Made by a program: the position numbers and the translations under genes. Source: an uncultured Geobacteraceae bacterium (GTDB lineage: Bacteria; Desulfobacterota; Desulfuromonadia; Geobacterales; Pseudopelobacteraceae). Taken from it: a stretch of 64,000 nucleotides of DNA. This document shows, one piece after another, positions 2-19,696 of this stretch. Each line of letters starts with the position of its first letter. Position 1 is the stretch's first letter. The DNA is taken from assembly GCA_903875605.1 (NCBI GenBank), contig CAIQWT010000076.1, positions 1 to 64,000 on the forward strand, written 5' to 3'. The notes below the pieces were generated by a model. It saw only the letters and a program-made list of their open reading frames with translations. It searched no databases and was not told the origin of the DNA.

Positions 2-3000
2 GCCGCTGAAAGCGCCAGTGACCTCTTCACCATGAGCGTCAGCGACGGCGACGGCACCCCGGTAACGCAGAACTACACGGTGACCGTCACTGGTGCTGAC
101 GACGCTCCGACGCTTGCCGCCGACACAAAAACCGTAGCCGAAGACACCGCTGCCAGCAGCAATGTCCTTGCCAATGATAGCGACGTTGACAACACCCTCA
201 CGGTCAGCAGTTTCACCGTCACCGGTGATGCCACGGTCCACGCTGTCGGCACCACCGCCACCATTGCCGGCAAGGGCACCCTGACCATAGCCGCCAACGG
301 CGACTACACCTTTACCCCTGTTGCCAACTGGAGCGGCACTGTTCCTCAGGTCACCTACACGGTAAATACCGGCTCCACCAGCACGCTTGATATCACTGTG
401 ACTGCGGTCAATGATGCTCCTGTCCTGGTCGCCGACAGCAAGGTCGTGGCCGAAGACACCACCACTACCGGCAACGTACTTACCAACGATAACGTCGTTG
501 ACAACACGCTGAATGTTGCGAGCTTCCGGATCCTTGATGATGCAACTGTGTATACCGCCGGTCAGACCGCCACCATCACCGGCATAGGAACCCTCACCAT
601 TGCAGCCAACGGCGCCTACACATTCACCCCGGTTGCCAATTGGAACGGCAGCGTGCCAGAGGTGACCTATACTGTTACTACTGGTGAAACCAGTACGCTT
701 GCTATTCTGCTTACACCGGTTGACGACCCCTCCGTCCTGGTTGCCGATACAAAAACCGTTGTTGAAAACATCACGGCCACGGGCAATGTGTTGACCAATG
801 ACAGTGATGTTGACAACACGCTCACGGTAGCCACGTTCAAAGTATCCGGTGACGTCACGGCCTACGTCGCCGGCACCACCGCCACCATCGCCGGTAAAGG
901 TACTCTGACCATAGCCGCCAACGGCGCCTACACGTTCATACCGGCTGTTGCCTGGAGTGGCAGCGTTCCGGAGGTGACCTACACGGTCAATACCGGTTCC
1001 ACCAGCACCCTGAATATTTCCGTCACACCGGCGGATCATTCTCCGGGTCTGGCCGCCGACAGCAAAATTTCTCTTGAGGATGCAACGGGCGGTGGCAATG
1101 TTCTTGCCAACGACAGCAATGCTTCCAGTGTTACGAGCTTCCAGATTCTTGATGACGCCACTTTATATACCGCCGGTCAGACGGCCACCATCGCCGGCAT
1201 AGGCAACCTCACCATCGCCCCTAATGGCGCCTACACCTTTACCCCGGTTGCTAATTGGACCGGCACTGTTCCGGAAGTGACATACACGGCCAATAGTGGT
1301 GAAACCAGCACGCTTTCTATCCTGCTCACGCCGGTTGACGACGCCTCCGTCACGGTTGCCGATACAAAAACGGTAACTGAAGACACGGCTGCCACGGGCA
1401 ATGTACTGACCAACGACCGTGACGTTGACAACAACCTCACGGTTACCACTTTCCAGGTGAGCGGTGACGCCATGCTCTACAATTTCGGTGACACTGCAAC
1501 TATCGCCGGTAAGGGGACGCTGACCATAGGTTCCACCGGCGCTTACGCTTTCACCCCCCTTGCTAACTGGAACGGCACTGTTCCGCAGGTGACCTACACG
1601 GTTAGCACCGGTTCCGTCAACACGCTTGACATTACGGTAACCGCCATCAACGATGCGCCGATCGCCAGCATGGTCACGCTTACAGCTATCGCCGAAGACA
1701 GCGGCGCTCGCACCATCACCCAGACAGAACTGCTTGGCAACGCTGCCGACTTCGAGGATGATATATTGACTGCCAGCGCCCTTGCTATAGTCGACGGCAG
1801 CGGCACTATGGTTGACAACCACGACGGAACCTTTGTCTACACGCCTGCGCTGAACGACAACAGTTCTGTCAGATTCAGCTATACCATCAGTGACGGCAAC
1901 GGCGGCACGGTGGCGGGCAGCGCCATCCTTGACATTACTCCGGTTAACGACGCTCCGGTTGCCACCGGAGACAGCATCACCACCGCCGAAGACACGGCAA
2001 AAACCATCAGTGTTGCCACGCTGCTCAGTAACGACAGCGACGTAGACGGCGACACGTTTTCCATCAGCAGCATTACGCAGTCGGGCCACGGCAGTGTGGT
2101 TGAAAACCATGACGGCACCGTTACCTACACTCCGGTGGCTAACTACAACGGCTCCGACAGCTTCACATACATGGTATCCGACGGTATTACCTCCACCACC
2201 GGCACAGTGAGCGTTACGGTTACTCCGGTAAACGACGCCTCGGTCCTGGTCGCCGACAGCAAGGCTGTAGTCGAAAACACCACCGCTACCGGCAATGTGC
2301 TGACAAATGACAGCGATGTCGACAACACGCTGAGTGTTACATCATTCCAGATATTCGGTGACTCTACTATTTACAGGTTCGGACAGACTGCAGTCATCTT
2401 CGGTAAGGGGGCACTGACCATTGCTGCAAATGGTGAATATTCCTTTGTTCCTGTGACGGCTTGGAACGGCAGCGTTCCCGAAGTGACCTACACAGTCAGT
2501 ACCGGTTCTTCCAGCACACTGACTATTTCCGTCACGCCGGTTGATCAAACTCTAGGTCTGGTCGCCGACAGCAACATCACTCGTGAGGATTCCACCGCCA
2601 GCGGCAATGTTCTTGCCAACGACAGGAATGTGACCGGACTTACTAGCTTCCTGATCCTTAATGACACAACTGTTTACACCGCCGGTCAGACGGCCAGCAT
2701 GGCCGGAATAGGTTCGCTAAAAATTTCCGCCAATGGCGCCTACTCTTTTACCCCGGTTGCTAACTGGAACGGCAGTGTCCCGGAAGTGACGTACACAGCC
2801 AATAATGGAGGGACCAGCACGCTTGCTATCCTGCTTACGCCGGTTGACGACACCTCCGTCACGGTTGCCGACACAAAAACCGTTGCTGAAGACACCACTG
2901 CCTCGGGCAATGTACTGGCCAATGACAGCGATGTTGACAACACTCTTACGGTAGCCACGTTCAAAGTATCCGGTGATGCGACTGCTTATACGTTTGGGCA

Positions 3001-4420
3001 GACCGCCACCATTGCAGGGAAAGGCACTCTGACAATAGCCGCCAACGGCGACTACACCTTCACCCCTTCTGCCAACTGGAACGGCACTGTGCCGCAGGTT
3101 AACTACACGGTAAGTACCGGTTCTACCAGCACCATTGACATCACGGTAACAGCTGTTAACGATGCACCGGTCGCGTCACCTGATTCCGGTGCTGTCGGCA
3201 ATGATACTGTCCTGACAGTTAATGCCGCTCACGGCGTGCTTGCCAATGATGCTGACCCTGATGTTGGCGACATCTACACTGTCAGCGCCGTTAACGGTGA
3301 TGCAGCTAAAGTTGCTGCAGTCGTTGCAGGAGCTGGTGGCGGCACGTTTGTTATCGGGGCCGACGGTTCCTATTCCTTTAATCCAGGCAATGATTTTGAC
3401 AATCTGTCAGTCGGTGCGACGCGCACTAGCATGGTCAGTTGCACCATTCTGGATAACAACGGTCTCAGCTCTACCAGCACGCTGACGGTTACGGTCACAG
3501 GGGTGAAAATGGTTGCCGTGACCACTCCTGTTGTGGACACCACTCCTGTTTCTCCTGTAGTTGCTGTTTCCTCTGCCGCAGTTCCAGTCATCAGCCTGCC
3601 ACAGGTGTCTGAGACAACCTCTCCGGCTCTTCTGACAACAACAGTGGTTACGTTACCCTCTTCGGCGGATGTAGCTCAACCATCTTCCTTGAATGCTGTC
3701 GCTCCATCTGACACCGTTAAGGCGCAAAATGCTGAACCTTCTAAAGGGACTACTAATCAGGGAGCCGTGAACGACGCTACAGCGACGGGCTTGAGTACCG
3801 GACTTGTTGTTATGGGGGGGGCTGATCGAACTTTGGGTGGTGATGGTCTTTATCTGGTAAAAACACCATCTTCACAGGAGTCTTTGACCAATGTAACTAC
3901 CTCATTTAATCTCCCACTTGGCATGTTCAGGCATTCCGATTCCAACGCTAATGTCAAGGTGGAAGCAGTGCTGTCCGATGGGCGACCTTTGCCGGACTGG
4001 ATGACATTCGACCCGGCCAGCGGCCGCTTTACCGCCAAGCCTCCGGCTGATTCCGGCGGTACTCTGGATATTAAGATAACTGCGCGGGACCAGAATGGTA
4101 ATCTGGTTGAAACCCAGTTCCTCTTCCATATTACGAAAACCAAGTCGACTAAGCCGGCGGCTGTTGACACCGATGCAGCCAATGACGGTGCGACACAAAA
4201 AGACGGTAAACCATACGACAACGTCGATGATATTCTGCTTTCACCTCGAACGGATAACAGGGACAGGCTGGATCCGAGAAGATACCCATCTGTAAAACCG
4301 CTTAAAGGGAGACCTTCCTTGACCGAGCAGTTGGCGGCTTTCGACCAGCGAAGCAACAAAGTACCAGTACTTTTTTCTGCCTTAAACAAAACCGTTTATT
4401 CCATGAGTAAGGGTGGCTGA
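2..4420 (+). CDS. Giant tandem-repeat cell-surface adhesin, 3' part (5' end outside window)
   Basis: The frame is open to the left edge of the window, so this is the C-terminal part (about 1,470 residues) of a larger protein. The first ATG at 32 is internal. It has about eleven units of roughly 90-105 residues. Most have the pattern VADTKTV.ED..A.GNVL.NDSDVDNTLTV, then TATIAGKGTLTIAANG, then NWNG.VPEVTYTV. Two central units are shorter cadherin-like modules with DGT..YTP and NDAP. These are VCBS/cadherin-type Ig-like folds found in biofilm adhesins. After a Thr/Val/Pro-rich spacer comes a CADG/putative-Ig domain (LPDWMTFDPASGRFTAKPP) and a basic tail with GRPSLTEQL. I see no RTX nonapeptides in this part. 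The gene lies 45 bp upstream of a four-gene export set, so it is probably the cargo. The function as an adhesin is inferred from architecture. Confidence 0.85.
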   Translation, partial: AAESASDLFTMSVSDGDGTPVTQNYTVTVTGADDAPTLAADTKTVAEDTAASSNVLANDSDVDNTLTVSSFTVTGDATVHAVGTTATIAGKGTLTIAANGDYTFTPVANWSGTVPQVTYTVNTGSTSTLDITVTAVNDAPVLVADSKVVAEDTTTTGNVLTNDNVVDNTLNVASFRILDDATVYTAGQTATITGIGTLTIAANGAYTFTPVANWNGSVPEVTYTVTTGETSTLAILLTPVDDPSVLVADTKTVVENITATGNVLTNDSDVDNTLTVATFKVSGDVTAYVAGTTATIAGKGTLTIAANGAYTFIPAVAWSGSVPEVTYTVNTGSTSTLNISVTPADHSPGLAADSKISLEDATGGGNVLANDSNASSVTSFQILDDATLYTAGQTATIAGIGNLTIAPNGAYTFTPVANWTGTVPEVTYTANSGETSTLSILLTPVDDASVTVADTKTVTEDTAATGNVLTNDRDVDNNLTVTTFQVSGDAMLYNFGDTATIAGKGTLTIGSTGAYAFTPLANWNGTVPQVTYTVSTGSVNTLDITVTAINDAPIASMVTLTAIAEDSGARTITQTELLGNAADFEDDILTASALAIVDGSGTMVDNHDGTFVYTPALNDNSSVRFSYTISDGNGGTVAGSAILDITPVNDAPVATGDSITTAEDTAKTISVATLLSNDSDVDGDTFSISSITQSGHGSVVENHDGTVTYTPVANYNGSDSFTYMVSDGITSTTGTVSVTVTPVNDASVLVADSKAVVENTTATGNVLTNDSDVDNTLSVTSFQIFGDSTIYRFGQTAVIFGKGALTIAANGEYSFVPVTAWNGSVPEVTYTVSTGSSSTLTISVTPVDQTLGLVADSNITREDSTASGNVLANDRNVTGLTSFLILNDTTVYTAGQTASMAGIGSLKISANGAYSFTPVANWNGSVPEVTYTANNGGTSTLAILLTPVDDTSVTVADTKTVAEDTTASGNVLANDSDVDNTLTVATFKVSGDATAYTFGQTATIAGKGTLTIAANGDYTFTPSANWNGTVPQVNYTVSTGSTSTIDITVTAVNDAPVASPDSGAVGNDTVLTVNAAHGVLANDADPDVGDIYTVSAVNGDAAKVAAVVAGAGGGTFVIGADGSYSFNPGNDFDNLSVGATRTSMVSCTILDNNGLSSTSTLTVTVTGVKMVAVTTPVVDTTPVSPVVAVSSAAVPVISLPQVSETTSPALLTTTVVTLPSSADVAQPSSLNAVAPSDTVKAQNAEPSKGTTNQGAVNDATATGLSTGLVVMGGADRTLGGDGLYLVKTPSSQESLTNVTTSFNLPLGMFRHSDSNANVKVEAVLSDGRPLPDWMTFDPASGRFTAKPPADSGGTLDIKITARDQNGNLVETQFLFHITKTKSTKPAAVDTDAANDGATQKDGKPYDNVDDILLSPRTDNRDRLDPRRYPSVKPLKGRPSLTEQLAAFDQRSNKVPVLFSALNKTVYSMSKGG

Positions 4421-4465
4421 CAGACTGATACGTTTACATATTACTGCTAACAGGGAGCAGACAGG

Positions 4466-6559
4466 ATGAAACACCTAAGTATACTGATTGTATTATGTTC
4501 AATTTTAACAAGTTGTGCTGTGTCCACCACACCACAGGTGCAGAAGGATATCCTGAAACGGATCGACACAGACCGCGAAGCGATATACAAAGACCAGGAG
4601 CCTCTGGTGGGCGCAATCACCCTTGAGGAGGCTATGGCGCGATCCATCAAGTATAATCTGGACCATCGGCTCAAGATTATGGAGGATGCACTTGCCCTGA
4701 GACAGGTTGACCTTATGAAATATGATATGCTTCCCAAGCTCGTGGTTGCGGCAGGGTATACGGAACGGAATTCGTACAATGCCTCTTCCAGTATGAATGT
4801 GGCTACTAACACGCAATCTCTTGCGCCATCGACGTCACAGGATAAGGGGCATTATAACGGTGACCTGACGCTTACCTGGAATATACTGGATTTCGGGGTG
4901 AGCTACTTCCAGGCCAAGCAGCAGGCAGACCGTGCCCATATCATGGCAGAGCGTCGCCGGAAGGTTGTTCATTCGATCATGCAGCAGGTTCGTCAGGCAT
5001 ATTGGCTTGCCCTGGGTGCTCAACAGCTTGAGGGACGTTTCGAACCGCTGCTGAAGGGAGTGGCAAAGGCACTACAGGATTCTTCCAGTATCGAACAGGA
5101 AAAGCTACGTGCACCACTCGAGGCTCTGAACTACCGGAAGACGCTACTTGAAATCATGAAACAACTGGAGACGTTCCGCGATGAACTGGCCCAGGCAAAG
5201 CCAAGACTTGCTTCTCTGATGAACGTCCCCTTGGGACAGTCCTTTACCCTGTATCCTTCAAAGATGGAGATGTTGGAACTTTCCGTCAAGCTGGGTGAAA
5301 TGGAAAACAAAGCTCTTTTGCAGCGCCCAGAGCTTTTGGAGGCGGACTACAACGAGCGGATCAGTGTTAACGAAACCCGTAAGGCCATTGCCAGGATGCT
5401 TCCGGGCATTGAGCTGTCGGTTGGAGGACACTCTGAAAGCAACAGTTTTCTGGTAAATCAGCAGTGGGTTGAAGGAGGAGCACGGCTCACCTGGAACCTG
5501 ATGAATCTTATCAGCGCCCCAAGCCAGTACAAGATTGCCACAAGTCAGGTCAAGATTGTACAAACGCAGCGTCTTGCACTCAGTATGGCGGTCCTCACCC
5601 AGGTCCACGTTGCATACCGCGACTTCTACAATCGCAAGCGTCAGTATGAACTGTCGGAGCAGTTGCAGGACATAGATGCCCGAATCCATGAACAGACGAT
5701 GAACCAGGCAAAAAGCGGTGCACAGAACCAGTTGAACGAGATCCGATCTGAGACGGCATCACTTATGGCAGAATACCGGAGCTACCAAAATTATGCCTCC
5801 CTGCAGAGTGCCTGCGGTCAAATGCTGGCTACCCTCGGTGAGGATCCGTTGCCGGCAACAGCCACATCCCACGACATAAAGCCGCTTTCCGGGGATATTG
5901 GCGTGTGGCTCCACGGCTCTGGTGCACTGTGTTTGCCCGTGCCGGTCGCTCCGGTTGCAGCTGTCCCACCGGTCCCTGCTGTGAAACCACCGGCTGCGGT
6001 TGCTGCTGTCCAGCTGGTTCCTTTTGTGAAGCCACCGGTTGCCGATGCTACTGTAACCACTATTCCGGCGGCGGCTCAGCCGGTCTCAGCGGTGAAACCA
6101 CTACCGTTTATCGAAGCTACTGCCCCGCCGACTCCGGTGGCTGTTGCTCAGTCGGCTGTTGTGGTTGCTCAGCCCAAAGCCCATTCACTCAAGACGGCCA
6201 GCCCGATTATACTGCCGCTGAAATTTGGCCAGTCGCAGTCGGAAGTGAGGCCATATCATTACGATGCACTCAAAATATTTGCTGATTACTTTAAAGAATG
6301 CCCTGATGCAACGGTAGAAATTTCAGGCCATACTGACAACATTCGTTTTGTTGACAATTCTGACAGCAACAGGAGGCTGTCCCAGCGTCGAGCGGACAAT
6401 ATCCGCAACTATCTCACCACTACTTACGGCATTGATCCGGGGCGTATTACCGCCAGAGGATTCGGGCCACTGAAACCTGTTGCAGGTAATGGCACCGAGG
6501 AGGGCAGGCGGAAAAATCGTCGCATTGAGGCAAATTTTACCTGTGAAAAGAAACAATAA
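4466..6559 (+). CDS. TolC-family outer membrane lipoprotein fused to a C-terminal OmpA domain
   Basis: 697 residues. It starts with a lipoprotein signal peptide whose lipobox is L14-T15-S16-C17. Residues about 50-470 are a TolC/OEP-type outer-membrane channel, with long helical stretches and repeated 'LTLTWNILDFG' and 'ARLTWNLMNL' strands typical of the family. A Pro/Val/Ala-rich linker follows at about 485-585. The last 100 residues are an OmpA-like peptidoglycan-binding domain (ISGHTDN, LSQRRADNIRNYL, GFG, RRKNRRIE). TolC proteins form the outer-membrane exit duct of type I secretion and efflux systems. The OmpA domain would tether this duct to the cell wall. A good ribosome-binding site (GGGAGCAGACAGG) precedes the ATG. 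The gene sits between the adhesin and the adaptor genes, so export of the adhesin is the likely role. Confidence 0.88.
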   Translation: MKHLSILIVLCSILTSCAVSTTPQVQKDILKRIDTDREAIYKDQEPLVGAITLEEAMARSIKYNLDHRLKIMEDALALRQVDLMKYDMLPKLVVAAGYTERNSYNASSSMNVATNTQSLAPSTSQDKGHYNGDLTLTWNILDFGVSYFQAKQQADRAHIMAERRRKVVHSIMQQVRQAYWLALGAQQLEGRFEPLLKGVAKALQDSSSIEQEKLRAPLEALNYRKTLLEIMKQLETFRDELAQAKPRLASLMNVPLGQSFTLYPSKMEMLELSVKLGEMENKALLQRPELLEADYNERISVNETRKAIARMLPGIELSVGGHSESNSFLVNQQWVEGGARLTWNLMNLISAPSQYKIATSQVKIVQTQRLALSMAVLTQVHVAYRDFYNRKRQYELSEQLQDIDARIHEQTMNQAKSGAQNQLNEIRSETASLMAEYRSYQNYASLQSACGQMLATLGEDPLPATATSHDIKPLSGDIGVWLHGSGALCLPVPVAPVAAVPPVPAVKPPAAVAAVQLVPFVKPPVADATVTTIPAAAQPVSAVKPLPFIEATAPPTPVAVAQSAVVVAQPKAHSLKTASPIILPLKFGQSQSEVRPYHYDALKIFADYFKECPDATVEISGHTDNIRFVDNSDSNRRLSQRRADNIRNYLTTTYGIDPGRITARGFGPLKPVAGNGTEEGRRKNRRIEANFTCEKKQ

Positions 6560-6673
6560 GAGCAAATACTGCAGTAATAAGGCAACACCATATTTTAGAG
6601 CTAATACCCGATCAAATCTGCCTTCAGTCGTTCCAACAGAATCGGGTGAGGGTAACACGGATAAAGGACTACT

Positions 6674-7459
6674 ATGAACTGTACGATATACAAAACTACA
6701 TGTAATCCTGCCGGTTGCTGCAGTTGGGGGATTTTTCTTATGATGTCGGCGCTACTGTTTCCACAGTTTGCCGCCGCCCAGGAAAACCTGTTTGGTAACC
6801 GTATCCGGGCCCAGCTTACGGCCTTTCAGCAGACGACACTTTCCGCCGAAATAGCGGCTAATATTTCAAAGCTTCCCCTCCACGAAGGTGAGTCGTTTAA
6901 AAAGGACGATCTGCTTGTCGAGTTCGACTGTGCCCTCCTGAATGCCCAGCTGAACAAGGCGGAGGCTACTGCGGAAGTCGCGCGGCAGGGGTTGAAGGTG
7001 AGCAAGCGTCTTGAAACGCTGAATTCGATCAGCACTCTTGAAGTCGACCAGGCAACGGCACGCGTCAAGGAGACCGAAGCCGAACGTGAGGCGATGAAGG
7101 TGAATGTTTCCAAGTGTTCTCTGGCGGCTCCGTATTCAGGCAGAATTGCCAAGCTGCATGTGGATGCCTACCAGTATGTCACACCGGGCAAACCGCTCAT
7201 GGATATTCTTGATACGAGCCGTCTTGAAGTGCGGCTGATTGTTCCCTCTGTCTGGCTCACCTGGCTTAGGCCTGGTGGCCGTTTTGCCATTCAGATCGAG
7301 GAATTGGGGAAAAACTACACTGCCCGTGTCATTAGGCTTGGTGCACGCATCGATCCGGTAAGCCAGTCTCTGTCGATAACCGGCGAAATTGAGGGGATCC
7401 ATGGCGAGCTTCTTCCCGGCATGAGTGGCTGGGCCACTTTCAGCAAGGCGAAAAAATGA
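6674..7459 (+). CDS. HlyD/RND-type periplasmic adaptor protein
   Basis: 261 residues with an N-terminal signal or anchor segment (about residues 15-36). The mature part is a membrane-fusion protein: a lipoyl half-motif (LSAEIAANISKLPLHEGESFKKDDLLVEFDC), an alpha-hairpin (about 85-140), the returning half-motif (LAAPYSGRIAKLHVDAYQYVTPGKPL), then a beta-barrel domain ending GMSGWATF. Adaptors of this family bridge an inner-membrane transporter and a TolC duct. At 261 residues it is shorter than most HlyD proteins (about 350-450), and its hairpin is short. AAAGGA lies upstream of the ATG. Its stop overlaps the next gene by four bases (ATGA), which suggests translational coupling. Confidence 0.85.
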   Translation: MNCTIYKTTCNPAGCCSWGIFLMMSALLFPQFAAAQENLFGNRIRAQLTAFQQTTLSAEIAANISKLPLHEGESFKKDDLLVEFDCALLNAQLNKAEATAEVARQGLKVSKRLETLNSISTLEVDQATARVKETEAEREAMKVNVSKCSLAAPYSGRIAKLHVDAYQYVTPGKPLMDILDTSRLEVRLIVPSVWLTWLRPGGRFAIQIEELGKNYTARVIRLGARIDPVSQSLSITGEIEGIHGELLPGMSGWATFSKAKK

Positions 7460-8787
7460 TTGAGAATGCGGAAGGTCAAATAATAGGGCTAAGTATTCTC
7501 GTCCAGCTCTCAAGACGAGTCAGAGAGGCTGCCTCAACTGAAGAGATCGGGTTCATTGCTGTCAATGAAAGCAAACAGCTGCTCCCGTACCGTCAGTCCG
7601 CAATCTGGATGCGCGGCAAAGGTATCCTTAGTGTTTCAGGTGTTCCTGATCCGGACCGCAGTTCTCCGTACATACAATGGCTTTCGGAATGCTGCAAGAT
7701 ATGGGATACCGTAAAAACGAGCTGTTGCCATATTCCGGAAGATCTTTCAGATGAACTTTCCAGCTTATGGGGCGAGTGGGCACCGTCCAATGCGGCAATA
7801 GCCCCGTTAAAATTTAAAGATGGTGACCCTCTCGGAGTATTCATTCTCTTTCGAGAAGATCCTTGGCATGAGAACGACCTGGCACTTCTGAACGAACTCG
7901 CTGCAATTTATGCCCACGGTTTTTCTGTATACTCCGGGCGTGGCAATGTTTGGGACAAGTTAAGAAAGATCAACCTCTCAATTAGTATTAAAGCGGGACT
8001 GGCCCTGCTTGCCGTTGCGTCCCTGTTTTATCCGGTGAGTATGTCGGTTCAGGCTCCGGCTGAGATTGTACCGAAGGACGCGTTTGTGGTGAGATCTCCG
8101 CTCGATACGGTTATTGATAAGTTCCATGTACGGCCCAACCAGGCCGTTGTTCAGGGACAGCTCCTTTTTGAGTTTGACCGGACAAACCTCGGTGCCAAGT
8201 ATGGTGTGGCAAGTAAAGCGTATCAGGTGGCTGCAGAAGAATACCGTCAGGCGGCCCAGACGGCCCTTGTGGATGACCGGTTCAAGGCGGAGATAACGCC
8301 GCGAAGGGGCAGGATGGAGGAGAAGGCGACGGAACTTTCCTTCTCCCGGCATCTGTTAAGCAGGGCGGAGGTCCGTGCCCCGCGCTCAGGCATCGTTATT
8401 TTTGCTGAACAAAGCGACTGGATAGGCAAGAGCGTTTCAATCGGGGAGCGGGTTTTGACTATTGCCGACCCGAATCGGGTTGAGATGCTGATTCGACTTC
8501 CGGTAGCGGATGCCATCGATTTTGCCCTGGAAAGTCCGGTACGGCTTTATCTTACGTCGGACCCCAATAATCCGCTGGACGGCACACTGCGTTATGCCGC
8601 CTACAAGCCGGAGGCAACCTCCTCTGGGATTGCCGCCTATCGCCTGAAAGCGGATCTTGCCTCCGGAACCACGCCACCGCGTATCGGGATGAGCGGTACC
8701 GCCCGCATCTACGGTAAAAAAGTGTCCCTCGGCTACTATCTCTTCCGCCGACCACTGACGGCGGTCCGGCAGCGTCTCGGATGGTAG
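7456..8787 (+). CDS. GAF-like domain / HlyD-type membrane adaptor
   Basis: 443 residues. Residues about 1-155 resemble a cytoplasmic GAF-like sensor fold (SIL.QLSRRVREA.S.EEIGFIAVNES, LKFKDGDPLGVFILFRE). A single membrane helix follows at about 175-195 (AGLALLAVASLFYPVSMSV). The rest is a periplasmic HlyD-like domain with both lipoyl half-motifs (VRSPLDTVIDKFHVRPNQ, VRAPRSGIVIFAEQSDWIGKSV) and a barrel ending PPRIGMSGTARIYG. The layout would link a cytoplasmic signal to the export machine. It is translationally coupled to the preceding adaptor and overlaps the M50 gene by seven bases. The GAF assignment is by pattern only. The ligand is unknown. Confidence 0.8.
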   Translation: MIENAEGQIIGLSILVQLSRRVREAASTEEIGFIAVNESKQLLPYRQSAIWMRGKGILSVSGVPDPDRSSPYIQWLSECCKIWDTVKTSCCHIPEDLSDELSSLWGEWAPSNAAIAPLKFKDGDPLGVFILFREDPWHENDLALLNELAAIYAHGFSVYSGRGNVWDKLRKINLSISIKAGLALLAVASLFYPVSMSVQAPAEIVPKDAFVVRSPLDTVIDKFHVRPNQAVVQGQLLFEFDRTNLGAKYGVASKAYQVAAEEYRQAAQTALVDDRFKAEITPRRGRMEEKATELSFSRHLLSRAEVRAPRSGIVIFAEQSDWIGKSVSIGERVLTIADPNRVEMLIRLPVADAIDFALESPVRLYLTSDPNNPLDGTLRYAAYKPEATSSGIAAYRLKADLASGTTPPRIGMSGTARIYGKKVSLGYYLFRRPLTAVRQRLGW

Positions 8788-10895
8788 AGGCCCGCCCGCT
8801 TCCACCGCTCCGCGAGGAGCTGGGGCTGTCTCCTGCGCCCACGTCAAAAAATGGTACACCGGCCTGGACACTGCATGACCCTCCGGCCAACAAATTCTTT
8901 CTGCTTGAATGGCCCGCCTTTGAAATCCTTTCGCGCTGGAGCCTTGGCTCTGTTCAGGTCGTTATCGATGCTGTCAATCAGGAAACGACCCTTACCGTTA
9001 CGGAACATGATGTGCTCGGCATGATCACTTTTCTGGACCAGAATTTTCTGTTTCAGACAACAACTGCGGCCGGAAGTCAGCGGCTTGTGTCGGCTCAGGC
9101 AGCAGGTCACCCCGGATGGGGCATGTGGCTTCTGAAAAACTACCTGTTCATTCGAGTCCCAGTGGTTCATCCGGAAAAATTTCTCAAGAAAGCCGGCCCA
9201 GTCGCCGGATTGTTTTTTTCGCGTTCTTTTTTAGCCATGGTGGGCGTAGCAACTTTGGCGGCATTTTACCTCCTCTCGCACCAATGGGATGTCTTCCTCC
9301 ATTCGTTCACTGCATATCACAGCCTCGAAGGGATACTCATTGTCGGCTGCGCTATTCCGCTTGCCAAAGTAGTTCATGAACTGGGACATGCGTTCACCGC
9401 GCATCGTTATGGCTGCCGTATACCAACCATGGGCTTTGCCCTCGTCGTTATGACCCCTATGTTGTACACCGATACCAACGAAGCCTGGAAGCTTACCTCG
9501 CGATCCCAGCGGCTTGCCATCGGTATCGCCGGCATGGCTGCAGAGTTGCTGCTCGCCCTGGCTGCATTATGGGTATGGCTTCTGATGGCAGATGGGCCAT
9601 TGCGCGGTGCAGCGTTCATACTGGCAACCACAACCTGGATCATGACTATTGCCCTTAATGCCAGCCCTTTCATGCGTTTTGACGGTTATTTTATCCTTTC
9701 GGACTTTCTTAGTCTGCCCAATTTACACAACCGCTCTTTTGCCTTTGGCAGGTGGTGGCTGCGGGAATGGCTTTTCGGACTTGGAGCGCCGGAACCGGAA
9801 CCGGCCTCGTTGCAGCGCAAGGTTTTTCTGATATGTTTTGCTTTTCTGGTGTGGGTGTATCGTCTGGTGGTGTTTTTTGGTATCGCTGTAATGGTTTACC
9901 GCTACTTTTTCAAGGCGCTCGGCATCTTTCTGTTTGCTGTTGAGATCGGCTGGTTTATTGTGCATCCAGTGTATAAAGAGGTTATCGCGTGGACGAAAAT
10001 GAAAGATAAGCTCCGGATAAATATGAATATGATTAGAGGGTTGCTACTGGTCATCGCGATCATCTTTATGATCGTAGTGCCATGGAACGGTCATTTTTCT
10101 GCACCGGCCACACTTTCTGCGATCCGGGAGCAGCAGGTCAACGTGCCGTTCGCTGCGATGATAACCGGTGAATCCGCTGCTGATATGAAAAAGGTGCGCA
10201 GTGGCGAAACAATATTACAGCTGCGTTCTCCAGATATGGATCAACAGATCAGTCAGGTAAAGACGTCAACGGGTGTTTCACAGTGGCAGGCGGACCAGCA
10301 GACGTTCGATGAAAAGCTGCTCAGTCAGGGGAATGTTCTCAACCGTCGCCTGGAAGCCGGAACAACTGAACTCTCGGGCCTGATAGATGTTAAGGGCCGA
10401 CTGACGCTGCGGGCTCCGTTCGATGGGATCATTGTGGCCCGCAACGACGAACTTGCCAACGATGTCTGGCTGCCGCGCAGAGAGCCTCTGTATGTGATTG
10501 CGGATACCGGCAGTAACAGGGTTGATGCCTACGTTAGTGAGCGTGAGCTGGAGCGTATCAGGGTGGGTGCTCCGGCACTGTTTGTGCCTGATGCCCTTGA
10601 TTTCGGTGTGTACAGATGCCGGGTAGCCGAAATAGACCGGGTAAATATTTCAACTATAGATGAGCCGTTTCTGGCTTCCACATTCGGTGGTCCGATCGCC
10701 GCACGGAATGACCCGCAGGGGGCGATTATCCCCGACCTGCCTGTCTTTAGGGTCCGTATGGACAGCTGTTCCCCTGCCGCTGTTCCATTAATTAAGTTGA
10801 AAGGGGTTGTGCATGTTAAAGCCGAGATGCGAAGTTCATTGATTGATATGCTTCGTAACGGCTATGCGGTTATCATACGGGAAATCGGGTTTTAA
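8781..10895 (+). CDS. M50 (site-2-type) zinc metalloprotease fused to a HlyD-like domain
   Basis: 704 residues, polytopic. Residues about 20-95 resemble a PqqD-like winged helix. The M50 core carries the zinc motif H199-E-L-G-H203 inside a membrane helix and the distal N293...D301-G302 motif typical of site-2 proteases, so the active site appears intact. After further membrane helices (last near 430-445) comes a periplasmic lipoyl/HlyD-like domain (about 455-670: VNVPFAAMITGESAADMKKVRSGE, LRAPFDGIIVARNDE). This build is known in 'putative peptide zinc metalloprotease' proteins found beside HlyD and TolC genes. It is the only multi-spanning inner-membrane protein in the operon, so it may be the inner-membrane platform or may process the cargo. 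That role is inference. Confidence 0.85.
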   Translation: MVEARPLPPLREELGLSPAPTSKNGTPAWTLHDPPANKFFLLEWPAFEILSRWSLGSVQVVIDAVNQETTLTVTEHDVLGMITFLDQNFLFQTTTAAGSQRLVSAQAAGHPGWGMWLLKNYLFIRVPVVHPEKFLKKAGPVAGLFFSRSFLAMVGVATLAAFYLLSHQWDVFLHSFTAYHSLEGILIVGCAIPLAKVVHELGHAFTAHRYGCRIPTMGFALVVMTPMLYTDTNEAWKLTSRSQRLAIGIAGMAAELLLALAALWVWLLMADGPLRGAAFILATTTWIMTIALNASPFMRFDGYFILSDFLSLPNLHNRSFAFGRWWLREWLFGLGAPEPEPASLQRKVFLICFAFLVWVYRLVVFFGIAVMVYRYFFKALGIFLFAVEIGWFIVHPVYKEVIAWTKMKDKLRINMNMIRGLLLVIAIIFMIVVPWNGHFSAPATLSAIREQQVNVPFAAMITGESAADMKKVRSGETILQLRSPDMDQQISQVKTSTGVSQWQADQQTFDEKLLSQGNVLNRRLEAGTTELSGLIDVKGRLTLRAPFDGIIVARNDELANDVWLPRREPLYVIADTGSNRVDAYVSERELERIRVGAPALFVPDALDFGVYRCRVAEIDRVNISTIDEPFLASTFGGPIAARNDPQGAIIPDLPVFRVRMDSCSPAAVPLIKLKGVVHVKAEMRSSLIDMLRNGYAVIIREIGF

Positions 10896-12284: not shown

Positions 12285-12501
12285 AATTCCCGCCAGAATT
12301 TTAAGGCACTCAGACTGACTCAGTCACATCCCATATCCCATGTTCCAAAAATCATACAAATTTCGTCACAAGTTCATAATGATCTGACGGTCTGCAACCC
12401 TTGCAAGAAGCTTTAATGAAGAGGCTTTCCGGTGGCTATTCCGATTGATTTCTGATATGAAAGTTCAGCTTTCACATTCGGGTAACCAGCGGGAAATAGT
12501 G

Positions 12502-13842
12502 ATGAAATATCAGGAAACCGAAACCGTTGAACTGAAAAAATCCACCTCTGAACTGAAGGAGGCGGTGCACTCCATTGTGGCGATGCTGAACAAGCACCAG
12601 CGGGGTGAGGTCTGGTTCGGCGTTAAAAACGATGGGACGATTGTCGGTCAGCAGGTCTCAGATAAAACGATGCGGGATGTCTCCAAATCGATTTCCGAAC
12701 ATATCGAACCAAAGATATATCCCGTTGTTGAGCAGGTAGATGTTGACGGTAAACAGTGCATCAAGGTTCAGATTGAAGGCGGAGAACACCCTTACTATGC
12801 GTATGGACGGGCGTATATCCGTGTGGGTGATGAAGATAGGCAGTTAAGTGCCAAAGAGCTGGAAAATATGGTTCTGACCAAGAACCGTGACCGGCTCCAC
12901 TGGGATACTGAGGTTTGCGATAAAGCGACCTTTGATGATATCGGTGCCGGTAAGCTTAAATCATTCCTGAAACTCTGCGGTTTAACATACGACACAATTC
13001 CTAACTCTCTTGAAAAACTGAATCTGATCAAAGACGGCAAGTTATTGAATGCCGCTGTACTCTGCTTTGCCCGCAAGCCTGAGAAGATCTTCCCCAACGC
13101 CAGATTACGCTGTGCGGTATTCGGTACGTTGGATACAACAGTGACTCTGGATATGAAGGATTTCTACGGTGATGTTTTTGCTCTGATCAGTAAGGCCGAA
13201 GAATATGTTCTGGAGCACATCAACATCGGTATGCGTCTGGATGGATTGTTGCGGGTAGATGTCCCTGAAATTGACCGTGAAGCGATTCGTGAAGCGATTA
13301 TCAATGCATTCTGTCACCGGGATTACCGGGAGTATGATTCCGTCAACATTGCTATATTCAAGGATCGTATCGAAATCAGAAGCCCGGGAACTCTGTATGG
13401 CGGGCTTACTATCGACAGCATCAGAAAGAAAATGGTTTCAGCACGGCGAAACGAGTTGCTGGCAGAACTGTTCCAGCGAAGCCACCGCATTGAAAAATGG
13501 GGGCGTGGTATCAAGATGATCCTGGAGCGGGAGCCTGCTACAGAGTTTGAAGAGATAGGAACCGTAAAGTTTTTTGTCACGTTCAAACGGAAAACAGGTG
13601 AATTGACTACTGGAAGTTTTCAGGGAACCGGTACCCAGAAAAGTTCACAGAAAAGTTCACAGAAAATCCTCGATATGATAGTCTCCAATCCGCATATCAC
13701 CATCAGGGAGATGGCAGACGTTCTGAAGATCACGGACCGGGCGATTAAGAAGAATATCGAAAACCTGAAGAAGGATGGCGTACTCAAGCGTGTTGGTCCG
13801 GATAAAGGCGGGTCTTGGGAGGTTGTACGTAATCCCGAGTGA
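12502..13842 (+). CDS. AlbA_2 (Schlafen-type) / HATPase_c_4 / winged-helix regulator
   Basis: About 446 residues from ATG 12502. The frame extends upstream to a TTG at 12445, but family members begin near ETETVELKKS. Residues 1-120 are an AlbA_2/'divergent AAA-4' domain (VELKKSTSELKEAV, GEVWFGVKNDGTIVGQ, YIRVGDEDRQL). The middle and C-terminal half hold the HATPase_c_4 region (REAIINAFCHRDYREYDSVN, RIEIRSPGTLYGGLT, KWGRGIKMI). A SSQKSSQK linker leads to a winged helix (about 395-440). Such proteins are putative transcriptional regulators, common in islands and near defence genes. The gene lies about 115 bp before the McrB-like gene in the same orientation and may regulate it. Confidence 0.8.
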   Translation: MKYQETETVELKKSTSELKEAVHSIVAMLNKHQRGEVWFGVKNDGTIVGQQVSDKTMRDVSKSISEHIEPKIYPVVEQVDVDGKQCIKVQIEGGEHPYYAYGRAYIRVGDEDRQLSAKELENMVLTKNRDRLHWDTEVCDKATFDDIGAGKLKSFLKLCGLTYDTIPNSLEKLNLIKDGKLLNAAVLCFARKPEKIFPNARLRCAVFGTLDTTVTLDMKDFYGDVFALISKAEEYVLEHINIGMRLDGLLRVDVPEIDREAIREAIINAFCHRDYREYDSVNIAIFKDRIEIRSPGTLYGGLTIDSIRKKMVSARRNELLAELFQRSHRIEKWGRGIKMILEREPATEFEEIGTVKFFVTFKRKTGELTTGSFQGTGTQKSSQKSSQKILDMIVSNPHITIREMADVLKITDRAIKKNIENLKKDGVLKRVGPDKGGSWEVVRNPE

Positions 13843-13957
13843 CTGATCACTTCAACAAGGATTCGCGATCAGGAAGATGCTGGGTACCGCGTGATTCCGG
13901 TTTAGTTTGCATGATAAGGGTCTCTTCTGCATGCACAAATTAAGGTGAGGTCTATGT

Positions 13958-15796
13958 ATGATTCAACAAGATTTTGAAGCAATTTTGGGGAGGTACACTC
14001 GTGCACGCACAGGTGAACCTTTCAATGGTGAACATGATATATTCAAATATTTTGAATCAATACGTGAATGCATTTCACAGTCTGAAGTAGTGAAGAGCAG
14101 ACCTCATATTCGAGTGAAATTTAGTGCCGGACAAGGGAATTGGGCAAGAGTACCGTGGATTGCTTTTCTTGATTCAAGAGAAACATCAACGACTCAAAAG
14201 GGCGTATATTGCGTATACCTGTTCCGCCAAGATATGTCAGGTCTTTATGTGACTTTCAATCAGGGCGTCACGGAACTCATCAACCAAAACGGTCGACCAA
14301 AAGCACACCAAGAACTGCAACGAAGAGCTAAAGACTTTCAACAATATTGCGATTTCGATAAGTCAAAAGGTTTTACGCTTGGACAAGGAATTGATTTGCG
14401 AGCAGACCCTGGACTTGGAGCTGATTATGAGTATTCAACTATTGCCCACAAATTATATGAAACAGGCAAAATACCAATCGATGCAACTATCTTAAGTGAT
14501 TTGGATACAACACTCATGGCTTATGACAATTATATGAATAGAACTCCTATGCCGGCTCCGCCTATTGCAAAACCCATGACACCCAAAAAACAAACAAATC
14601 TCCCCAAGCCTTTCCTCCTACTTGCTGGTATCTCAGGTACAGGAAAAACCCGGTTCGTTCGCGAACAGGCAAATGCATCAGCCTCACTATTTAGCTTGCC
14701 CGAAGGCAACAACTATTGTCTTGTCCCCGTTCGCCCAGACTGGCACGAACCATCCGATCTTCTTGGCTATATCTCCCGCATTGGCTGTGACGGCCCCCGC
14801 TATGTTGTTACAGATCTGCTCCGCTTCATTGTGGCAGCGTGGAAACATACTGTAGAAACTGCATCCGCAGAGGGTATAATCTATAAACCATTCGACACCG
14901 TGTGCCCTTATTGGCTCTGTCTTGATGAGATGAATCTGGCTCCGGTTGAACAGTATTTTGCTGATTATCTGTCCATTCTTGAAACCCGCAAATGGGAAAA
15001 AGGTGCCTATTCATGTGATCCGCTTCTCAAATCGGCAGTAATTAAACAGCAACTTGACGCAGAAGGTCAGATCGATTTATGGAAACGATTGGGTATCAAT
15101 GATGCCGAATCTACCGGATTGGTAGAATTCTTCACAGAATACGGAATCGCGCTGCCTCCCAATCTGATCGTGGCCGGCACGGTAAATATGGATGAGACTA
15201 CCCATGGCTTTTCACGCAAGGTTATTGACAGGGCGCTGACTTTTGATTTCGGTGAGTTTTTCCCCAATGATTATAGCCAGTATTACGAAGCGGATAAGCT
15301 GCAGTCGGTCCGGCCGCTCGGCTTTCCACGTATGTCCGGAGTGCACCATGAGGGTGCTCTTGCTTCAGTATCTGCTGACAGGGACGGTCGAAATACAATA
15401 CGCTTTTTGAATGCTGTCAATGGAATCCTCAAAGATACTCCTTTCGAGCTTGCCTATCGTGCTTTGAACGAAGCCTTATTGGCAGTTGTCTGTTTCAATC
15501 CTGCTGATGAAATCCAATTGCAGGCGGTCTGGGATGATTTTCTGATGATGAAAGTGCTTCCAAGGATTGAGGGTGATGCAGAAAAACTGGGCTATGAAGG
15601 TGATGATACCGGACGGTTGATAGAATTATCACAGCTTCTGAAGACGGAGTTGGCGGCTATTGCAGATGGCAGACCTGACCTGTTGAGAGTTAATGATGAC
15701 GGATCAGCGGCTCAATCCTCGTGTCGGTCGTTGAAGAAACTCGCATGGATGCAAAAGCGTCTTTCCGGAAGTAGCTTCACTTCCTTCTGGCCGTAG
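13958..15796 (+). CDS. McrB-like AAA+ GTPase/ATPase (DUF3578 N-terminus)
   Basis: 612 residues. The N-terminal about 190 residues match the MrcB/DUF3578 type (FSAGQGNWARVPWIAFLD, GVYCVYLF). The AAA+ domain has Walker A G224-ISGTGK-T231, Walker B with D323-E324 (LCLDEMNLAPVEQYFADY) and the McrB-type motif T-V-N410-M-D-E followed by R425 (VIDRAL). McrB motors work with McrC-type nucleases in type IV, modification-dependent restriction. Here the partner is the DUF2357 gene 13 bp downstream. The ATG at 13958 has AAGGTGAGG upstream. The ATG four bases earlier runs into a stop. The first 500 bp are visibly more AT-rich than the rest. Confidence 0.85.
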   Translation: MIQQDFEAILGRYTRARTGEPFNGEHDIFKYFESIRECISQSEVVKSRPHIRVKFSAGQGNWARVPWIAFLDSRETSTTQKGVYCVYLFRQDMSGLYVTFNQGVTELINQNGRPKAHQELQRRAKDFQQYCDFDKSKGFTLGQGIDLRADPGLGADYEYSTIAHKLYETGKIPIDATILSDLDTTLMAYDNYMNRTPMPAPPIAKPMTPKKQTNLPKPFLLLAGISGTGKTRFVREQANASASLFSLPEGNNYCLVPVRPDWHEPSDLLGYISRIGCDGPRYVVTDLLRFIVAAWKHTVETASAEGIIYKPFDTVCPYWLCLDEMNLAPVEQYFADYLSILETRKWEKGAYSCDPLLKSAVIKQQLDAEGQIDLWKRLGINDAESTGLVEFFTEYGIALPPNLIVAGTVNMDETTHGFSRKVIDRALTFDFGEFFPNDYSQYYEADKLQSVRPLGFPRMSGVHHEGALASVSADRDGRNTIRFLNAVNGILKDTPFELAYRALNEALLAVVCFNPADEIQLQAVWDDFLMMKVLPRIEGDAEKLGYEGDDTGRLIELSQLLKTELAAIADGRPDLLRVNDDGSAAQSSCRSLKKLAWMQKRLSGSSFTSFWP

Positions 15797-15809
15797 CCGG
15801 TGCCTTACT

Positions 15810-18167
15810 GTGCCTGAAGTAGTCAGGATACATACGGCTGACTGGAATCTTTCCGTCTGGACGAAGAATATAAGCGTACCGACCGAACGCCTTACGTCAA
15901 CCCTTGTAGCCAGAGGAAAAGAACTTCCTGTTGGTGCAGTCCGCTTGTTTCCCGCTCTGAAAATTTCCGGCGTATCCCCTGAACCAATAAATTCAATTGA
16001 TGAAAAAATATCTGAATTATCTATTCCGGCACCGGTTTTTTTCGAAAACCGGCTCTACGAGTTTGAATTTCAGTTTTCCGGCTGTAGTTCAACCTCCTGT
16101 CCCGAAATCATTCACTGGCGCACCGATGTAGTCGATGCCTTCCACACGTCAGGAAACAGTCTCAGGGGAAGTATCAACTTCGGTAATGATGTGGGTTGGT
16201 TTCGACTGGGACTGAAGTTTAACAGCGGTCAGCGGGATGCAGAGCAGTATTTATCTTTTGAAGTTTTGCCGACCAAGATGGACCTGGCGGGAGACTTTGA
16301 TCAGATTCACCGGGATATTGACAGCTCCTATCCGCTCTGGCGTTTTTCGTTTGCCCAGAAAACCGAACATGAACTTGCTAAATCACGGAAACCGCACGAA
16401 CGTTTTCCTCTGCTCTGGCTGGCATTATTCAGAAGTCTGCGTGCTGAACTTCAGGAAGCAGTAAAACTGATCTGCAGGTCTCCTCATGCGCGGCTTCTCC
16501 CGCAGGAAAAATTTCTGCGTCCGGACCGGCTTAAAGGAAGGCTTACTCCACGCCTGGAAGAACAGGTAACAGAACAATGTCTGAACGGAGAAGTGCACCG
16601 TCGTCACAGGGTGGAGACTCGTCGTCTGTCGGTTGATACGCCTGAGAACCGTTTTGTGAAAATGGTGATTACCCGCTGTGTTAAGGAGTTATCACGATTC
16701 AGTCAGAGAGCACGATTGAATAATGCCATACCGGACAGAGAAAAACTCAGTCAGGCATTTTTTGATGAGTTGGTGAGTTGGCAGAAACCACTTGAGCAAA
16801 GGCTGGCTGAACCCCTGTTTCGTGAAGTCAGCAGTTTTAACGGATTGTCAGGTGAGTCTCTGGTGCTGCATCACAGAGCCGGTTATGCAAAAGTGTACCG
16901 AATCTGGCAGGAGCTGAAGCTGTATCTTGATCTTTTCGGCCGCCAGGCGGCAATCTCGATGAAGTCTGTATCTGAACTGTATGAAGTCTGGTGCCTGCTT
17001 GAGATGCGTCGAATGCTGATTGGCCTGGGCTTTGTTGAAGTGGAAAGCCGTAAAGCGGCGATACGGACAAAAGGTCTGGAAAAAGATCTGGTAGACGGCA
17101 TGGGTACCGCATTCCGCTTCACAAGGCGTGACGGGTTGAAAATCCGTCTTGCCCATGAACCGCCGTTTTCCGTTACGAACAAGCCTGACGCCAGAGGCAT
17201 CTACTCATGGACTACACCTCAGAAACCAGACATTCTTCTCGAAGCATCTTTTCCTGACAACAGCAGGATCAGATGGATATTTGACGCAAAATACCGGATA
17301 GCCTCTGAAGACGCAAACGATGATGACCTTATTCCCGATGATGCAATCAATCAGATGCACCGTTACCGTGACGCACTGATACATCTGTCTGCCGGAGATG
17401 ACGGCGTTACTGAAAAAAGCCGTCCGATTGTGGGAGCATTTGTGCTCTATCCTGGATGGTTTGATGAAGAGACTGGTACAAACCCGTATGCTGCAGCAGT
17501 TGAGTCTGTCGGCATCGGAGGGTTCCCGCTTCTGCCGGGACGTGACAACCTTTGGCTGAAGGCATTTCTGAAAGAGAAATTCGGAGATCTGTCCTGCCCA
17601 GAGTCAACAGAACGGGCACTGGATCCTGATGAACATCTTTTGAACGAATCGGTAAGGATAGCGCCGACAGGGTTGTCATTAAGCCGATATGACGACCTGA
17701 CACTTGTAGCTTCACTGGGGAATGTTTCAAAAAGAGATAAGTCGTATGTTGACGGCTTTTTAAGTGGAACAGCAGGTTGGTACCATATTCCGGCCAGCAC
17801 CACTGACAAGAGAATTTCAAGAACGGTCATGCGCGAACTCAGCTGTTGTGCTGTAGCTGTCCATCCATCTGGAGCTGGAGAAAGGCTGATTGAATACCTG
17901 TACGAAGTTGAATCAGTGGCACTGTTAAAACGATGTGAACTGACAGTTGAACAGGCTGGAAACGTTGACCTCGGAAACCAGAACGAATACTGGTTGCTGA
18001 AGCTTGGTACCGCCCGGTGTTTACCAGATCCAGTTAAAGCCGGTGGAATCCGTAAATTCCGGTACCGCTTTACTTCTGCATCAGATCTTATCTCCGCACA
18101 AAGCTGGGAAGATCTCTCCGAACTTTACCAGTGTGTCGCTGGCAAAAAGCCTGTTTCAGCTGTTTAA
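15810..18167 (+). CDS. DUF2357 / McrC-like PD-(D/E)XK nuclease subunit
   Basis: 785 residues, starting at GTG 15810, 13 bp after the McrB-like stop. The N-terminal half is DUF2357-like (SVDTPENRFVKM at about 275-286). The nuclease core is visible as Y391-EVW..LEM, P473-D474-ILLE and F491-D492-A-K494-YR, the D...DxK signature of PD-(D/E)XK enzymes. Such proteins pair with McrB-like motors and are proposed restriction nucleases of type IV systems. The long C-terminal extension (about 620-785) is conserved-looking but unknown to me. Target specificity cannot be read from sequence. Confidence 0.8.
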   Translation: MPEVVRIHTADWNLSVWTKNISVPTERLTSTLVARGKELPVGAVRLFPALKISGVSPEPINSIDEKISELSIPAPVFFENRLYEFEFQFSGCSSTSCPEIIHWRTDVVDAFHTSGNSLRGSINFGNDVGWFRLGLKFNSGQRDAEQYLSFEVLPTKMDLAGDFDQIHRDIDSSYPLWRFSFAQKTEHELAKSRKPHERFPLLWLALFRSLRAELQEAVKLICRSPHARLLPQEKFLRPDRLKGRLTPRLEEQVTEQCLNGEVHRRHRVETRRLSVDTPENRFVKMVITRCVKELSRFSQRARLNNAIPDREKLSQAFFDELVSWQKPLEQRLAEPLFREVSSFNGLSGESLVLHHRAGYAKVYRIWQELKLYLDLFGRQAAISMKSVSELYEVWCLLEMRRMLIGLGFVEVESRKAAIRTKGLEKDLVDGMGTAFRFTRRDGLKIRLAHEPPFSVTNKPDARGIYSWTTPQKPDILLEASFPDNSRIRWIFDAKYRIASEDANDDDLIPDDAINQMHRYRDALIHLSAGDDGVTEKSRPIVGAFVLYPGWFDEETGTNPYAAAVESVGIGGFPLLPGRDNLWLKAFLKEKFGDLSCPESTERALDPDEHLLNESVRIAPTGLSLSRYDDLTLVASLGNVSKRDKSYVDGFLSGTAGWYHIPASTTDKRISRTVMRELSCCAVAVHPSGAGERLIEYLYEVESVALLKRCELTVEQAGNVDLGNQNEYWLLKLGTARCLPDPVKAGGIRKFRYRFTSASDLISAQSWEDLSELYQCVAGKKPVSAV

Positions 18168-19192: not shown

Positions 19193-19696
19193 CTACAGTA
19201 ACCCCCTCTCAACAAAACTGCAATAACTGTCTTGTCCGATGATACAGTGATCCAGTACCTTGATGCCCATAATCTCTCCAGCCTCCTTGAGCCTTTTGGT
19301 AATGGTAATATCTTCCTGACTCGGTGCAGGATCGCCTGACGGGTGCTGATGGATCAGAATCAAAGCGGCTGCATTTGACAAGCATGCTGTTTTGAATACC
19401 TCCCTTGGGTGTACGATGCTCTGGTTAAGAGAGCCGATGCTCACAATGTCCATCGCCATGATTCTGTTCTTGCCGTCAAGGTGCAGCGTCATAAACATTT
19501 CCTTCGTTTCCTGCATCAGAAAACGGAACGTCTCATACACCTGGCTGGGAGCGGTGAAGCGTGTTCCGGTCTTCAGATAGTCGGCAATCTCTTCTTTGAC
19601 GGTCAGTGTCTCGTACACTGCCTTGATCTGTTTGAACTTGATCGTTCTGGGCTTACTGGTGGTTTCCTCTTTGCCGAATAATGTCTCGATGGTCAT
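19193..19696 (-). CDS. radC: RadC-family JAB/MPN+ domain protein (mobile-element type)
   Basis: 167 residues from the ATG at 19696, chosen because AAAAGGAGAACACC lies just before it. A longer frame upstream has no site and no family resemblance. The protein is essentially the RadC/JAB metalloprotease-like domain with the H-x-HPSGDP-x-PS-x-ED motif (LIHQHPSGDPAPSQED). It lacks the N-terminal helix-hairpin-helix of chromosomal RadC, as do the short YeeS/YkfG-type copies in prophages and islands. The biochemical role of this family is unsettled. It forms a minus-strand pair with the ArdC-like gene upstream. Confidence 0.85.
   Translation of the reverse strand: MTIETLFGKEETTSKPRTIKFKQIKAVYETLTVKEEIADYLKTGTRFTAPSQVYETFRFLMQETKEMFMTLHLDGKNRIMAMDIVSIGSLNQSIVHPREVFKTACLSNAAALILIHQHPSGDPAPSQEDITITKRLKEAGEIMGIKVLDHCIIGQDSYCSFVERGLL

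Follow-up and report, generated by a model that had tools for sequence, protein, structure and literature searches.

A candidate ABC-independent export locus for giant adhesins, centred on an RRE-M50-HlyD protein, in an uncultured Geobacteraceae bacterium

Type I secretion systems (T1SS) for large adhesins of the LapA/BapA/SiiE type are defined by an ATP-binding cassette (ABC) exporter and combine it with a TolC-type duct, HlyD-type adaptors and a giant repeat adhesin encoded in the operon. M50 intramembrane proteases are known from another setting, as the daptide leader peptidase (NF041824; MpaP) and the epipeptide protease YydH/EpeP (NF058609), and leader removal by MpaP is reported to be RRE-dependent (PMC10036551). 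Here we analyzed the first operon of a 64,000-nucleotide stretch of DNA (the window), which runs from base 1 onward of contig C76 (CAIQWT010000076.1) in the genome of an uncultured Geobacteraceae bacterium (3.58 Mb, 109 contigs, 99.25% complete). This operon shares the duct, the adaptors and the giant repeat adhesin with the former systems and the M50 protease with the latter. We consider it probable, though well short of certain, that the locus is a dedicated envelope-spanning, ABC-independent export system for giant adhesins, in which an RRE-M50-HlyD protein recognises and probably cleaves a LEPR-type leader. The operon comprises the following features:

2..4420, plus strand: giant adhesin, 3' part, with cadherin-like, tandem-95, VCBS and CshA repeats; open reading frame (ORF) open at its 5' end
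4307..4333, plus strand: GRPSLTEQL, C-terminal cargo motif starting 37 residues before the adhesin end; putative export tag
4466..6559, plus strand: TolC-type outer-membrane factor with a lipoprotein-like start (LTSC) and a C-terminal OmpA domain (6224-6520)
6674..7459, plus strand: HlyD-type periplasmic adaptor; single hydrophobic segment near its start, signal peptide-like
7456..8787, plus strand: GAF-HlyD adaptor; GAF at about 7537-7935, one hydrophobic segment at 7975-8031, HlyD part at 8032-8784
8781..10895, plus strand: RRE-M50-HlyD, inner-membrane protease/adaptor (Peptidase_M50 and HlyD_3)
8796..9059, plus strand: predicted RRE (leader-binding) fold, M50-HlyD residues 6-93
9375..9389, plus strand: HELGH zinc site, M50-HlyD residues 199-203
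9657..9686, plus strand: NASPFMRFDG, expected third zinc-ligand region, M50-HlyD residues 293-302
10080..10892, plus strand: HlyD/MacA-like adaptor part of M50-HlyD

In Pfam, HlyD_3 was matched in all three adaptors (HlyD, GAF-HlyD and M50-HlyD), the TolC protein matched OEP in two stretches (1.2e-25) and OmpA at its C-terminus, and GAF (5.9e-6) and Peptidase_M50 (4.8e-7) were matched in GAF-HlyD and M50-HlyD, respectively; the structure model of GAF-HlyD has a pLDDT of 90.3. The HlyD and GAF-HlyD genes overlap by 4 bp and the GAF-HlyD and M50-HlyD genes by 7 bp. T1SS components present in the operon are therefore the TolC-type outer-membrane factor and three HlyD-type membrane fusion proteins. 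An earlier note on this DNA had described the cargo, the TolC duct, the three HlyD-domain proteins, their order and overlaps, and an intact HELGH and N..P..DG site in the M50 protein, and the ORF coordinates, Pfam matches and residues given above agree with it on all of these points. The lipoprotein-like start and OmpA domain of the TolC protein, the third, N-terminal (RRE) domain of M50-HlyD, both cargo tags and the accessory SecA of a sister clade are absent from that note.

The membrane part of M50-HlyD has about seven spans according to hydropathy and model helices, and carries the HExxH plus NxxP...D signature of M50 site-2 proteases. Residues H199, E200, H203, N293, P296, R299 and D301 are identical in all of 18 sequences (the window protein and 17 relatives, 18 to 91% identical), and the M50 active site is also invariant across 60 sequences. 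The M50 assignment comes from sequence matches and not from the VIA structure list for M50-HlyD, which holds no M50 structure and does not thereby exclude an M50 fold. Residues 6-93 have a predicted fold of three strands followed by three helices which resembles that of RRE domains and is superposable on a solved RRE; RRE domains bind leaders. The best NCBIfam match of the window protein was the daptide leader peptidase NF041824, at 132 bits and thus below the cut-off of 300, and PqqD (Pfam) was matched in 4 of the 18 sequences, all of them relatives. Because of the predicted RRE fold and this best match, the suggestion of the earlier note that M50-HlyD acts as an inner-membrane platform or cargo processor is supported in outline.

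The module recurs well outside the window. Among named relatives the closest is a metagenome-assembled genome (MAG) of an uncultured Geobacteraceae bacterium, whose M50-HlyD protein is 91% identical. A tblastn search with M50-HlyD matched 72 of 72,556 plasmid records, 54 of them at a coverage of at least 80%, and annotated stretches from Burkholderia anthina, Azospirillum argentinense, Variovorax paradoxus, Escherichia coli, Magnetospirillum and Niveispirillum encode, besides TolC and M50-HlyD, a giant or repeat protein and two further HlyD proteins, one of them a small adaptor. In E. coli the M50-HlyD gene was found in 24 of 5,426 genomes, and 21 of its 25 places are on plasmids. Culturable hosts exist, as plasmids of Azospirillum, Burkholderia, Variovorax and E. 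coli carry related loci. Furthermore, a pattern scan of genome contigs gave at least 593 matches, at least 587 of them relatives, and the best 80 of 587 (loci L083-L162; ORFs taken from stop to stop, so that start sites are approximate) come mostly from Proteobacteria, with some from Desulfuromonadales-type bacteria and Nitrospira and one from a MAG titled Mycobacterium. The earlier note had proposed searching for the five-gene order across genomes. TolC, HlyD, GAF-HlyD and M50-HlyD lie in this order in 47 of these 80 loci (7 are rearranged, 15 have too short an upstream part and 11 are of other kinds), and GAF-HlyD precedes M50-HlyD in 78. Three single cases were also seen. A plasmid of E. 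coli strain 0H23 from Alberta (L067, L039) carries a whole locus of the window's type (type A), the IMG/VR contig L043, one relative from a scan of viral contigs, carries GAF-HlyD and M50-HlyD of the window type, and in genome G032 (L046:15524-18240) two ORFs each hold a part of the TolC match.

Complete cargo proteins mostly start with a basic stretch and a LExRxxFDAA-type motif, and mostly end with a GRPSLxxQL-type motif. In plasmid cargos, the N-terminal motif follows the basic stretch in six of seven (LESRQLFDGA in E. coli, LEARYMFDAA in Variovorax, LEPRMMFDAA in Niveispirillum, LEPRVVYDAS in Burkholderia, LEPRFMFDAA in Azospirillum and LEQRILFDGA in Caballeronia). The motif was also present in 6 of 8 candidates among the 80 loci (not in L084 and not in L110, the latter with masked bases), in genomes G153, G071 and G366 and, within the window's genus, in 5 of 10 fetched stretches, none of which reaches far enough for the 3' end to be assessed. 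In 12 cargos, hydropathy near the motif stays at or below 1.8 over 15 residues, and these cargos thus show no evident classical signal peptide. At the other end, the tail pattern [RKQ]xx[LF]xxQ[LFMIVA], which was defined from the same tails in which it was counted, lies in the C-terminal 90 residues of 50 of 58 cargos, whereas 200 shuffles gave a mean of 2.2 (maximum 8 of 58) and interior stretches a mean of 0.2 (maximum 2); these cargo ORFs were picked by position and composition in 58 of the 80 loci, and the other 22 were dropped. The locus of G153, a family relative, is contiguous, with a cargo ORF of 3,515 residues followed by the four export genes. In addition, DUF4347 was found in 8 of 10 cargo N-termini, and genomes G004, G014 and G020 have five DUF4347 N-terminus matches each, on separate contigs, which suggests several cargos for one machine. 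The DUF4347 region of the L107 cargo (161-1360) also gave a weak Peptidase_C80 match (0.005), and DUF4347 may, on this similarity, be a relative of cysteine peptidases.

The cargo tag is found together with the module. Cargos of a sister clade of the window's M50-HlyD scored over the cut-off of the LEPR-XLL family model (NF012209), as did that of G153 (19.4 bits), and two of four plasmid cargos scanned fell just under it; the N-terminus of the window adhesin is missing. Across 395 genomes sampled evenly from the phylum, the M50-HlyD profile matched 27 genomes at E<=1e-20 (21 over most of the profile length) and LEPR-XLL matched 29 at E<=0.05 (28 over the family cut-off). M50-HlyD was present in 15 of the 29 LEPR-XLL genomes and in 6 of the 366 others, one of these six being the window's genome with its cut cargo. 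At a LEPR-XLL threshold of E<=0.0062, picked after the list was seen, it was present in 12 of 14 (one-sided Fisher p 1e-15, uncorrected for kinship). A second SecA match is found in each of the two exceptions, G137 and G190, and is cut by a contig end in G190 and lies on a different contig from the LEPR hits in G137. The largest cargo ORFs reach 15,080 residues (G208) and 10,562 residues (G039, whose sister-clade cargo is among those with DUF4347).

The sister clade consists of M50-HlyD relatives of about 25% identity from the same genus and order, in which the module is accompanied by a SecA-like ORF of about 640-700 residues. This accessory SecA lies directly behind M50-HlyD in 15 of 18 sister-clade loci. 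The gene order is either giant ORF, TolC, HlyD, GAF-HlyD, M50-HlyD, SecA (L054, L055, L165 and L224) or giant ORF, GAF-HlyD, M50-HlyD, SecA, often with an HlyD-like ORF next; in G039, which has the latter order, TolC precedes the giant gene. An alignment of ten accessory SecA proteins showed retention of the stretches for Walker A, the DEAD box, M[TS]GT, NMAGRG and the QG-PGS type, and an end shortly past the start of the housekeeping SecA scaffold helix. The region beyond this end, which in housekeeping SecA forms wing, two-helix finger and tail, is hence lacking, and none of the proteins reaches the cut-offs of the SecA2 models. When 51 M50-HlyD proteins were placed in a tree, clade A (with the window) and clade B (with SecA) each fall on one side of a branch with an SH-aLRT value of 99. 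A copy in G440 that is without SecA groups among the clade B rows, and a third lineage without SecA comprises G157, G366 and G439, with G160 and G265 on long branches. The eight genomes assigned type A alone (G000, G007, G032, G153, G442, G071, G172 and G336) have one full SecA each, and G013, G004, G014 and G020 have type A plus an accessory SecA. No accessory SecA was found in G000, the window's genome, whose other SecA match covers 69 residues (E 2.3e-5) within a 772-residue ORF, and no ORF in the flanks of the best 80 loci had SecA as its best match.

From these observations we infer export, leader binding, cleavage, topology and energy source as follows. The RRE domain of RRE-M50-HlyD would bind the cargo leader in the cytoplasm, and the M50 part would act as an inner-membrane gate that holds the chain and probably clips the leader. 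The HlyD part of the same protein, together with GAF-HlyD and the soluble HlyD adaptor, would form a channel across the periplasm to TolC, itself tied to peptidoglycan, in this view, by its OmpA domain. GAF-HlyD may additionally switch export via a cytoplasmic ligand, a guess from the domain alone. In clade B the module-encoded truncated SecA would be the likely motor, and in the SecA-less clade A housekeeping SecA would be the first candidate.

TolC and HlyD proteins are T1SS parts, and the locus could thus also belong to ordinary type I secretion, with an ABC exporter encoded elsewhere and M50-HlyD as an accessory. In this regard, the earlier note had stated that the operon is without an ABC exporter and had pointed to the DNA upstream of the adhesin as the place to check. 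The window's own upstream DNA lies beyond the contig start, and the stretches fetched around six plasmid relatives carry no annotated ABC ATPase (their gene table is incomplete, and a seventh relative has no annotation). None of the five ORFs of at least 250 aa between the operon and base 20636 is an ABC gene, and an ABC ATPase of the window lies 48 kb off (about 59017-59727). In the whole genome, the best of 63 matches to the LssB/LapB model reached 314 bits against a cut-off of 693; MsbA-like exporters are present, and of all matches three cover both permease and ATPase; these score best with MsbA-type models and do not reach the cut-offs for HlyB, LssB or PrtD. The fetched stretches around the G153 locus contained no ABC-motif ORF, and the 10 stretches fetched for DUF4347 matches in the window's genus, whose flanks are short, contained no ABC exporter. 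Among the 80 loci, 10 ABC-motif ORFs were found, in the flanks of only 9, and the eight scanned, which are all except the ORF in L090 and the second one in L142, comprise six of importer type, one without a match at 1e-60 and one of HlyB type. The latter favors a T1SS in that single locus, L141 of Serratia marcescens, where the exporter lies 2.1 kb downstream on the opposite strand (884 bits, cut-off 726). An ABC exporter as hidden partner was rejected on the relatives' annotation, the 80 flanks, the window's own genome, G153 and the DUF4347 stretches of the genus, L141 being the sole case of a HlyB-type neighbour. The statement of the earlier note consequently holds for the adjoining genes, for the LssB cut-off genome-wide and for the relatives in which the arrangement recurs, and is limited by the L141 exception and by the unseen 5' flank of the adhesin. 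The invariant M50 active site is a further argument against the T1SS explanation, which we regard as improbable.

A two-step route, in which Sec would take the cargo across the inner membrane and TolC/HlyD would take it outward from the periplasm, with the M50 part only trimming or quality-controlling, appears unlikely to us but deserves more weight. The single full SecA of each of the eight genomes with type A alone is consistent with it, as is the fact that the sister-clade partner is itself a SecA paralog. Additionally, the cargo of Zoogloea oleivorans (L139:1000-1500) has an ESPR domain, a type V extended signal peptide (3.5e-14), ahead of its LEQRFMFDGA motif, which hints at Sec. However, the 12 cargos have no classical signal peptide, and because the accessory SecA is truncated ahead of wing, two-helix finger and tail, it is doubtful that it pushes proteins through SecY in the known manner. 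Lastly, the locus could be a signalling module, in which M50-HlyD would carry out regulated intramembrane proteolysis of a regulator, GAF-HlyD would be a ligand sensor and the adhesin a regulated neighbour. A GAF domain is indeed present and site-2 proteases are best known for regulated proteolysis, but no regulator gene recurs beside the module in annotated relatives, the cargo motifs track the module across genomes and RRE domains, as in the RRE-dependent peptidase MpaP, bind leaders, all of which leaves very little probability for signalling.

Several observations weigh against the reading of the locus as an ABC-independent export system. The window starts at contig base 1, so the adhesin is cut and its 5' flank unreadable there; its 5' end was sought in the window's genome and not found, its own leader is therefore not seen, and an ABC gene within that gap of the assembly is possible. 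Of 15 window-type N-termini, PqqD matched a single one (0.017), which is not that of the window protein, the N-terminal profiles of the window's clade and the sister clade match weakly (E 0.008, probability 4.8), and with the sister-clade profile the match to a solved RRE protein is no better than E 0.96, which leaves the window's RRE call dependent on the predicted fold. The module of the window's clade encodes no SecA motor, and in the sister clade SecA lies 5.7 kb off in G017 and about 13 kb off in G004 and is absent from the stretch of the G440 copy L226. Furthermore, the full window-type gene is patchy in its genus (6 of 36 other genomes, with a fragment in one more), and the Magnetospirillum cargo ORF is without the N-terminal motif. 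The HlyB-type neighbour in L141, the ESPR domain of Zoogloea, the way in which the tail pattern and the 0.0062 threshold were set and the uncorrected kinship belong on the same side.

Downstream of the operon, the window encodes at 12445-18167 a Schlafen AlbA_2-type protein followed by a McrB_N / DUF2357-PDDEXK_7 pair, a McrBC-like restriction system. On the minus strand, at 19193-20636, a RadC-like gene overlaps an ArdC-type anti-restriction gene, and this pair suggests a mobile element.

The ABC exporter that defines a T1SS is missing from the module, and no other system considered fits it. In a broader and more tentative proposal, which we hold as possible but would not bet on, a leader reader in the style of ribosomally synthesized and post-translationally modified peptides (RiPPs), an intramembrane protease and a periplasmic adaptor would replace the ABC exporter; a stripped-down SecA would feed the M50-HlyD-TolC conduit in one clade and another or borrowed motor in the other, with the LEPR-type motif as the tag for entry and a cargo of giant proteins (ORFs as long as 15,080 residues). 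In the literature searched, which comprised few subscription papers and no preprints, we recognised neither a machinery for the LEPR-XLL tag nor a published description of the module, including in PMC10885120 and PMC8277102; the passages seen in PMC10868602 and PMC12322963 name LEPR-XLL and DUF4347, respectively, as domains. If confirmed, the system would be a bacterial protein secretion route that has not been described. The giant proteins with LEPR-XLL and DUF4347, for whose export the literature searched gives no explanation, would thereby receive a machine, and the system would explain why the window's adhesin has no matching ABC exporter. It would also mean that the kind of leader reading used for RiPPs may serve protein secretion, and that a tripartite route can have a protease, not a pump, as its inner-membrane part.

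Compared with the LapA/BapA/SiiE-type T1SS, the module is without an adjoining ABC exporter, its polytopic inner-membrane part is the RRE-M50-HlyD protease and its cargos carry an N-terminal LEPR-type motif. In contrast to the daptide and epipeptide proteases (NF041824, NF058609), the window's M50-HlyD falls below the NF041824 cut-off, is fused to HlyD and has a giant protein, not a small peptide, as neighbouring cargo. Accessory SecA (SecA2) systems likewise encode a second SecA with motor motifs kept, but the sister-clade SecA is without wing, finger and tail, sits with M50-HlyD and was not found in the window's clade where tested. With LEPR-XLL proteins (NF012209) the sister-clade cargos have the tag in common, as does one window-family relative over the cut-off, and the tag tracks the module. 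The MacAB-TolC tripartite pump, for its part, differs in its MacB-type ABC protein, which the module does not have, whereas the module's own adaptor is fused to a protease.

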